From a bacterium (GTDB lineage Bacteria > Chloroflexota > Dormibacteria > Dormibacterales > Dormibacteraceae), in assembly GCA_004299235.1 (NCBI GenBank), contig SCQL01000031.1, forward strand, positions 248,001 through 312,000: a stretch of 64,000 nt of DNA, in the 5' to 3' direction. How positions within the stretch are numbered: the first letter of the stretch is position 1; each line of letters opens with the position of its first letter. A program made the position numbers and the translations under genes. A model generated the notes under the pieces. That model was not told the origin of the DNA, did not search any database, and was given only the letters and a program-made list of their open reading frames with translations. Below, in pieces: positions 37,224-39,041 of the stretch.

Positions 37224-37235
37224 CTAGTGCACTAG
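37224..37235. repeat. Perfect palindrome CTAGTGCACTAG between tadB and tadC
   Basis: This 12-bp palindrome ends at the base before the tadC ATG and occupies the place of its ribosome site. It equals the left and right ends (CTAGTGCAC and GTGCACTAG) of the 225-bp element at 38467-38691 joined over their GTGCAC, as expected for an excision scar or a solo end-fusion of the same element. Confidence 0.6.
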
Positions 37236-38120
37236 ATGTTCCTCATCGCGCTTTCCGCCGGTGTCATCTGCGGCGCCATCGTGGTGACGTACTTCGTCGC
37301 CCTCGACCAGAACCAGGCGGCCGCGGCGGCGACCAACGGTTCCTGGGCGGCGCCGGCGCCCAGGCAGACGCTGGTCAAACGGCTCGAATCACTGGTGCGG
37401 CCGTTCACCGCGCGCCTGCCGGCGCGAGCAGCAGGTCAGCTGCGCCAGAAGTTGAGCCGCGCCGGCGATCCGGGCGGCCTCACCCCAGCGGGATTCCAGG
37501 CCGTGCGGTACAGCCTTGCCGCCCTCGTCGCCATCGTCGGGCTCGGGACCGGTTTGCTGCTCCCGCTTCCGATTCCAACCCTGGTGCTGGCGCCGATCAC
37601 CGGCGCGGTCGCCGCTTTTCTCGGTTACGTGGCGCCGAGCCTGTGGCTCGAGCAGAGAATCGCCGAGCGCCGGCAGCAGGTCCAGCGCTCCCTGGCTGAG
37701 GCGACAGACCTGTTGACCCTGGTCGTCGAGTCGGGCATGAGCCTGGACGAAGGTCTGCTCAGCATCACGGAGCGGTTCCACAACGCTTTGGGAGATGAGA
37801 TTGGCAAGGTGCTGCGGGAGATACGGCTCGGCCGCCCCCGGATGAGCGCCTTGGAGCACATGGCCGAGGCCACCGGCGTTGGCGACCTGCATCACCTGGT
37901 CGAATCGATCGTCCAGTCAGACCAGATGGGGGTTCCGATCGCGCGACTCCTGAGGGTTCAGGCGACCGAGATGCGAAGACGCCAGCGCCAGACCGCGCAG
38001 GAGCGCGCGGCACAGGCGTCGTCGCGCATGGTGTTCCCGATGGTCGGATGCATCTTCCCGGTGCTGTGGATCGTCCTGCTCGGGCCGGCGATCATCCAGA
38101 TCCTGAAGTCCGTCCATTGA
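37236..38120 (+). CDS. tadC: Tad pilus inner-membrane platform protein TadC
   Basis: A 294-residue T2SSF-domain protein. N-terminal membrane segment, two central hydrophobic segments (~85-130), then the cytoplasmic domain with SLAEATDLLTLVVESGMSLDEGL, MAEATGVGDLHHLVESIVQSDQMGVPIARLLRVQ and a C-terminal membrane helix. It forms the platform with TadB. ATG 37236 has no Shine-Dalgarno; the bases before it are the CTAGTGCACTAG palindrome. The stop overlaps the MerR-like start by one base. Confidence 0.92.
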   Translation: MFLIALSAGVICGAIVVTYFVALDQNQAAAAATNGSWAAPAPRQTLVKRLESLVRPFTARLPARAAGQLRQKLSRAGDPGGLTPAGFQAVRYSLAALVAIVGLGTGLLLPLPIPTLVLAPITGAVAAFLGYVAPSLWLEQRIAERRQQVQRSLAEATDLLTLVVESGMSLDEGLLSITERFHNALGDEIGKVLREIRLGRPRMSALEHMAEATGVGDLHHLVESIVQSDQMGVPIARLLRVQATEMRRRQRQTAQERAAQASSRMVFPMVGCIFPVLWIVLLGPAIIQILKSVH

Positions 38121-38470
38121 TGAGCCACCGACTCGGGCCGCACGCCCCGCAACCGTCGTTCAACGATCTCGACAAGCCGCTGTACACGATCAGCGTCGCG
38201 GCCGAGATCCTCGAGACCCATCCACGCACGCTGATGCTCTACGAAGACGCGCACCTGATCGACCCGCATCGCACCAGCACGAACCGGCGCCGCTACTCAC
38301 AGCGGGACATCAGCAAGGTTCAGGTCATCCAGCACCTGACGCGCGAGAAGGGGGTCACGCTGGCGGGTGTGCGGCACATTCTGAGCCTGTTCGAAGTGAT
38401 GAAGAGTCACCGGGTGGAACCGCCGGCCGACCTGCGCGAAATCTTCGACCGGTACGCTCAGATCATCTAG
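38120..38470 (+). CDS. MerR-family regulator (HspR-like)
   Basis: A 116-residue MerR-type DNA-binding protein. The wing-helix N-terminus reads LYTISVAAEILETHPRTLMLYEDAHLIDP, then RRRYSQRDISKVQVIQHLTREKGVTLAGVRHIL. There is no metal-binding C-terminus. The pattern is close to HspR. It is translated directly after tadC (TGATG overlap), so it probably regulates the Tad locus or responds with it. Its TAG stop lies inside the CTAG end of the inverted-repeat element. Confidence 0.85.
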   Translation: MSHRLGPHAPQPSFNDLDKPLYTISVAAEILETHPRTLMLYEDAHLIDPHRTSTNRRRYSQRDISKVQVIQHLTREKGVTLAGVRHILSLFEVMKSHRVEPPADLREIFDRYAQII

Positions 38471-38691
38471 TGCACCGACCCAGAAATACCTTGCGGGTTG
38501 CAGCGCCCCTGCGGGCCGGTGCAATTTCGGCTGCGCCGAAACTCATCCCCCATAGCGGCCCATCTGCGTCGTTGTCGGCTCCGCTCCTCGCTCACGCACG
38601 GCAAGTGCCCCCGCTCCGGTGGTCGCCGACGCCTATCATCTGGACCACTCTGGTGGCGATCCCACAACGTATTTCCGGGACAGTGCACTAG
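38467..38691. mobile_element. 225-bp MITE-like inverted-repeat element between convergent genes
   Basis: Left arm CTAGTGCACCGACCCAGAAATAC... and right arm (reverse complement) CTAGTGCACTGTCCCGGAAATAC match at 20 of 23 positions. CTAG at both ends may be a 4-bp target duplication or part of the repeat. No coding frame is seen inside. It contains a hairpin TTTCGG-CTGCG-CCGAAA near 38525-38541. The left CTAG holds the TAG stop of the MerR-like gene (38468-38470) and the right CTAG holds the stop of rsfS on the other strand (38688-38690). Confidence 0.7.
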
Positions 38692-39041
38692 CCGCTGGCG
38701 GCGTTCCTGCGCCTTTTCGCGGCGGGCGCCCACAGGCTTTCGAGGTCGTAGTACGACCGCTCGCCCGGCAGGAACACGTGCGCGAGCACGGCGTCGAAGT
38801 CGAGCAGGACCCACGTGGCGTCGCCGTAGCCGTCGACCGCGATCGCTTTCAGCTGCTTGGCCCGGGCCGCCTCGACCATGGCATCGGCGATGGCTCGGAC
38901 CTGGCGGTCGGTCTCCCCTTCGCACACGACGAAGTAATCGGCGACCGAAGTCTTGTCCCGCACGTCGAGGACGACAGGGTCCCACGCCTTCTTCTCGACT
39001 GCCGCATCACGCAGCAGGCGAGCCAGCTGCAATGATGTCAA
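38688..39041 (-). CDS. rsfS: Ribosomal silencing factor RsfS
   Basis: RsfS binds L14 and blocks subunit joining under starvation. ~117 residues with the family pattern KKAWDPVVLDVRDKTSVADYFVV, then the QVRAIADAMVEAARAKQ helix and ATWVLLDFDAVLAHVFLP. The start is TTG 39041 (or TTG 39032, which has AGAGGA about 9 bases upstream). It follows nadD, as in many bacteria, and its stop comes from the inverted-repeat element. Confidence 0.92.
   Translation of the reverse strand: MTSLQLARLLRDAAVEKKAWDPVVLDVRDKTSVADYFVVCEGETDRQVRAIADAMVEAARAKQLKAIAVDGYGDATWVLLDFDAVLAHVFLPGERSYYDLESLWAPAAKRRRNAASG

Follow-up and report, generated by a model that had tools for sequence, protein, structure and literature searches.

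The window, as we call the whole stretch of 64,000 nucleotides that was analysed, contains a 225-bp sequence (38467-38691), with CTAG at both ends, that lies between the convergent genes for a MerR-family regulator and the ribosome silencing factor RsfS. The features of this locus are:

38120-38470, plus strand: gene for a MerR-family regulator, HspR-like, 116 aa (PF13411, E=1.9e-17; NF047375 HspR, E=1e-25, below its cut-off)
38467-38470: left target site C-TA-G, whose TAG is the stop of the MerR/HspR-like gene; the same C-TA-G boundary occurs at IS630 copies
38470-38688: IS630-type MITE proper, GTGCAC...GTGCAC, 219 bp, with five full-length copies in its own genome (95-100% identical)
38470-38497, plus strand: left terminal inverted repeat (TIR), 26/31 complementary to the right arm with C-TA included
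38498-38541, plus strand: two small hairpins (GCGCCCCTGCGGGCC... and TTTCGGCTGCGCCGAAA) read from the sequence, present only in the TIR-bounded type, with a similar stretch in the copies L051, L065, L074, L173, L178 and L195
38549-38654, plus strand: hairpin core, homologous by sequence comparison to hairpins of ~180 bp that form a dispersed family in Dormiibacterota
38661-38688, minus strand: right TIR, of which a solo copy (26/26) lies at G000:C2:108418
38688-38691: right target site C-TA-G, whose minus-strand TAG (38690-38688) is the rsfS stop, read from the sequence
38688-39035, minus strand: rsfS, ribosome silencing factor, 115 aa as translated (PF02410, E=4.6e-28; TIGR00090, E=1.1e-29)

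The original prediction described a mobile inverted-repeat element at 38467-38691 whose ends match over 20 of 23 positions and whose terminal CTAGs hold the TAG stops of both convergent genes. Its coordinates and repeat are correct, with arms that are complementary at 20/23 over the first 23 nucleotides and at 26/31 over 31, and the stops are indeed found at 38468-38470 for the MerR/HspR-like gene and at 38690-38688 of the minus strand for rsfS. We refine the mobile unit to 38470-38688, the outer C and G being part of the target CTAG, and the flanking TA is probably the target duplication. Arm pairs matching at 20/23 or better occur at a single place in the 64-kb window when the span is fixed at 225 bp, but four pairs, two of them overlapping, reach 20/23 at spans of 60-1500 bp, so that the inverted repeat alone is uncommon but not unique. 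What places the element beyond chance is its set of five full-length genomic copies at 95-100% identity.

These copies came to light when the 225-bp sequence was run against the element's own genome (G000, 100 contigs totalling 2.87 Mb), a check proposed with the original prediction. The same query also matched two half copies, a solo right end of 26 bp and, at G000:C29:52335-52368, 34 bp of left-end sequence at 85% identity. The five full-length copies lie at unrelated loci, and each has TA on both sides; this TA stands within CTAG everywhere but at the left end of one copy, where it is part of TTAG. Multiple non-coding copies with common terminal inverted repeats are what is expected of a MITE. 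The two half copies, C28:23616-23753 (reaching element position 138) and C19:109370-109506 (reaching 137), end where the core hairpin has its tip, as though cleaved at that point.

The left-end match on contig C29 belongs to a remnant with a truncated transposase ORF of 265 aa, which exceeds the cut-off of the IS630 model NF033545 (E=7.9e-60) and matches DDE_3 (E=1.9e-19). Its end, CTAGTGCACCGACCCGAAA, agrees with the left end of the element at 85% over 34 bp, and its reading frame crosses the terminal repeat and is closed by the TAG of the target CTAG. The element shares this one located end with an IS630 transposase element, as expected of a MITE; when the opposite ends of the IS630 remnants, this one included, were sought, none was found. 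No intact IS630 element was found in the assembly, which gave one partial match over the cut-off and four weaker fragments. The proposed search for a transposase with matching ends succeeded in part, yielding the IS630 remnant with its similar end but no full-length transposase element. The mobile nature of the element is nonetheless borne out by its repetition in the genome together with the end it shares with this remnant.

When the C29 remnant is considered together with 12 relatives from other genomes, TAG closes the transposase ORF at 12 of these 13 loci (CTAG at 11, TTAG at one), the remaining locus, L123, ending in TGA. At six loci (L112, L114, L115, L116, L121 and L126) both ends read TA|G... 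with 14-18 of 22 positions matching, which is the anatomy of IS630 elements, and our script found no convincing second end at the others. Like the element, IS630 relatives from other genomes are bounded by C-TA-GTG... A single full-length copy that is 79% identical lies at the MoaC stop in genome G026; its ends, CTAGTGTCCCGG..., are close to the IS630 end CTAGTGTCCCG... of locus L117 in G031, a genome of the same genus, and element ends therefore appear to follow those of the local IS630. A search for two nearly abutting element ends with the pattern CTAGTGCACN{0,30}GTGCACTAG gave no match.

IS630 reportedly prefers TA within CTAG, an observation attributed to Tenzen and Ohtsubo in 1991. For ISY100, a member of the IS630 family, excision and insertion at TA with duplication of the TA are described, with the transposase alone being sufficient (PMC2170065). 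We favour, with a probability of about 0.86, a model in which the element is a non-autonomous IS630/Tc1-mariner MITE that was inserted in trans at the TA of a CTAG formed by overlapping convergent stops, with the TA duplicated and both TAGs rebuilt. An IS630-type transposase acting in trans would have put the element into the TA of a CTAG in which the TAG stops of the two convergent genes until then overlapped, and the empty site would have read ...ATCATCTAGCCGCTGG... We infer this exact sequence, since the genomes compared all belong to other genera. As each strand of the element begins with G and the TA would be duplicated (C-TA|GTGCAC...GTGCAC|TA-G), placing G...C into C-TA-G would give C-TA-G...C-TA-G, and the TAG stop entering from either side would be rebuilt in frame. 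The genes would have moved ~220 bp apart with neither protein altered. The copies, their ends and boundaries, the transposase remnant with its similar end, the gene stops and the protein lengths are observed, and the rebuilding step can be read from the sequence, whereas we infer the transposition in trans, the duplication of TA rather than CTAG, and the overlap of the stops before insertion. With CTAG concentrated at stops and with ends that restore the stop codon on either strand, such an element would have a simple route into gene-dense genomes without causing damage.

A MITE of another family, of the IS5 type, could in principle have produced the same arrangement by duplicating the whole CTAG around ends that read TGCAC...GTGCA, given that TA and CTAG duplication cannot be told apart from the element alone or from the sequences of the five full-length copies. 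There is a precedent in MITEPsy1 of Pseudomonas syringae, which is like the element in being a short MITE with a CTAG or YTAA target, but is described as tentatively IS5-derived, 100 nt long and flanked by a 4-nt duplication (PMC3189936). We judge this origin improbable, because the only transposase found in the genome with a matching end is of the IS630 type, and because the one copy whose two sides differ (TTAG left, CTAG right) would need a mutation in addition to a 4-bp duplication. Less probable still is that the stretch separating the MerR gene from rsfS is a fixed, non-mobile structure with a regulatory or terminator role, even though the element folds better than shuffled sequence (z -2.68) and its core falls within a covarying hairpin family. 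No terminator-like site was found in 38350-38850, and near-identical copies occupy unrelated loci, while the element is absent from 13 relative gaps that were read. Likewise, no terminator or promoter was found in the element itself, and Rfam gave 0 matches at gathering in the window.

Those gaps come from a comparison of the same locus in relatives, another check put forward with the original prediction. According to our script calls, rsfS is convergent with the MerR gene at 17 of 29 relative loci, is arranged otherwise at 11 and was not found at one. We read 13 of the 17 convergent gaps, those of 6-180 bp (the four left out are 436-1183 bp long), all from other genera, and in each case the element is absent and the two convergent stops are at least 6 bp apart and do not overlap.

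The original prediction further held that insertion had fixed the C-termini of both proteins, and this is contradicted by the relatives. Of the 29 orthologues of the MerR-like protein in relatives, 28 measure 115-116 aa and one 119, and they nearly always end in ...QII, QLI or a similar triplet. Of 28 RsfS orthologues, 27 measure 113-119 aa and one 125, and many have ...KAASA-type C-termini. The stop context found most often for both genes is CTAG (14/30 for MerR and 11/29 for RsfS, the window being included in both counts). As both proteins of the window are of the length usual in relatives and CTAG is the prevalent context, their C-termini are, to judge from these comparisons, preserved rather than fixed by the insertion, and both stops are older than it. 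The same lengths, C-terminal motifs and stop contexts speak against the notion that the element brought its own TAG into the genes and thereby truncated or extended one or both proteins, which we consider highly improbable even though both stops do fall at the element boundary.

The fit between the element and its neighbours had been called unusually snug, and it is real. At 10 ends in the genome for which this could be determined (those at C16 and C2 being excluded), seven coincide with stops of Pfam-supported genes, namely HspR-like and RsfS in the window, DUF2203 and Dxs, DUF3048, LysS and DUF881; the copy at C28:155696, between DUF2203 and Dxs, again has stops on both sides. No gene stop coincides with the other three: the left side of C28:145590, where a TGA precedes the end by 13 nt, the side of C28:23616 that faces alr, and the side at the serS start on C24. 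Here and below, genes given without a Pfam call, including alr, purC, purS, pyrB, pyrR and mogA (the moaC neighbour), are named from their translated sequence. CTAG itself is scarce, with 32 occurrences in the window against ~193 expected from base composition and 51 under a Markov model. Among the 28 that lie outside the element and outside a palindrome at 37224-37235, 12 terminate a frame of 100 codons or more, two doing so on both strands, these being open frames and not curated genes. CTAG is also described as one of four tetramers that permit convergent stops to overlap by 4 bp (PMC2174442). The snug fit is thus partly explained by IS630-type elements targeting TA in CTAG, a sequence that is rare in the window and often located at frame ends, and selection against insertions inside genes can add to the bias toward stops.

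We thus read the window element as an IS630-type MITE with a stop-regenerating insertion that explains its odd fit. It resembles the IS630 family, including ISY100 of the Tc1-mariner superfamily, and the MITEs of this family in its GTG-initial inverted ends, its probable TA-in-CTAG target and the existence of a remnant with a similar end. It differs from them in that it carries no transposase gene, its interior derives from an unrelated hairpin family, and one insertion rebuilds the stops of both flanking genes. RUP, ERIC, Correia and other dispersed bacterial MITEs are described as similarly short, dispersed and mostly intergenic (PMC10969869). Insertion tied to inverted repeats near gene ends is likewise reported for IS1272, which, unlike the element, retains its own terminal repeats and replaces those of the target (PMC5678879).

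The interior of the element has a wider distribution than its ends. The element or its core matches DNA in 41 of 101 genomes searched, its own included, and nearly all relatives match only element positions ~83-188. A pattern scan of named genomes identified 28 stretches, all of them in Dormi(i)bacterota/Dormibacteraeota or Chloroflexi MAGs. Of 89 relative loci, the 74 whose arms lie at common offsets were aligned (15 were set aside) and give a hairpin of ~180 bp with 46 consensus pairs, 39 of which show at least one compensatory change. A covariance model matches in 45 of 61 genomes, with 42 matches in G019 and at least 44 in G051, where up to 44 were scored per genome. Rfam gave no match at E<=1 for seven loci carrying the core, and a literature search, with subscription papers mostly outside its scope, found no description of the element or of the Dormiibacterota hairpins. 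RUP, ERIC, Correia and similar MITEs have constant ends, whereas the arms of the Dormiibacterota hairpins are copy-specific and yet complementary (aligned loci; L052-L079, L160-L219). The window element consists of this core, the two small hairpins and the IS630 ends, and genomes G019 and G004 contain a second TIR-bounded type with the same two small hairpins and other ends. In G019, the loci L065, L178 and L195 of this second type have the same core and CTAG or CTTAAG ends.

The hairpins also sit closely between genes, directly adjoining stops and starts. At the 74 loci, a same-strand upstream gene was called 45 times, and in 40 of these its stop is no more than 8 nt from the end of the left arm; the same distance holds for seven of eight antisense downstream stops. 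The genes were called by a simple codon score, with no control for random placement. At the purC-purS junction, the hairpin is present at four of 30 loci and absent from the others, also within the same genera (L220-L249). The pyrB-pyrR junction is an ATGA overlap in many genomes (L255-L278, compared with L180, L183, L196, L199 and L212); in the filled copies, the stop/start sequence is repeated on both sides of the hairpin, and the last codon of the local upstream gene has its complement in the right arm. Presence of the hairpin at these ATGA junctions varies within genera, and its arms track the local last or first codons. Bearing on vertical descent versus mobility, hairpin similarity is 0.871 for same-site pairs (n=31), 0.871 for same-genome pairs (n=106) and 0.822 for the rest. 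Selection on plus-strand RNA was considered for the relatives' hairpins and is disfavoured because A-C mismatches outnumber G-U pairs (65 vs 33 in the outer and 32 vs 7 in the inner part), although these counts come from related sequences and serve as a pointer rather than a test.

On balance, we see about even odds that the core represents an undescribed, phylum-specific family of ~180-bp intercistronic hairpins of Candidatus Dormiibacterota, whose arms match the last upstream or first downstream codons and fit exactly from stop to start. The pairing would be kept by a process at the DNA level, either palindrome templating or structure-based insertion, rather than by selection on the plus-strand RNA, and the window MITE would be a core copy that gained IS630 ends, through which an ordinary transposase could move it. 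This hairpin family is a more novel lead than the MITE, and the common core raises a testable question about dispersed hairpins that lie exactly between genes with arms that follow the neighbouring coding sequence.

Two minor observations concern the element and its surroundings. Read in the frame set by the terminal CTA, all five full-length copies, the TTAG copy included, are free of stops along their whole length on both strands, and so is the 79% identical copy of G026. In addition, the palindrome at 37224-37235, CTAGTGCACTAG (TA-GTG-CAC-TA), is the sole occurrence of this sequence in the genome and is located 1.2 kb away from the element, with a T2SSF gene on either side. It may be an excision scar of the same element family that retains 3 nt from each end, with an imperfect fit because ISY100 is described as cutting 2 nt inside its 5' ends (PMC2170065).
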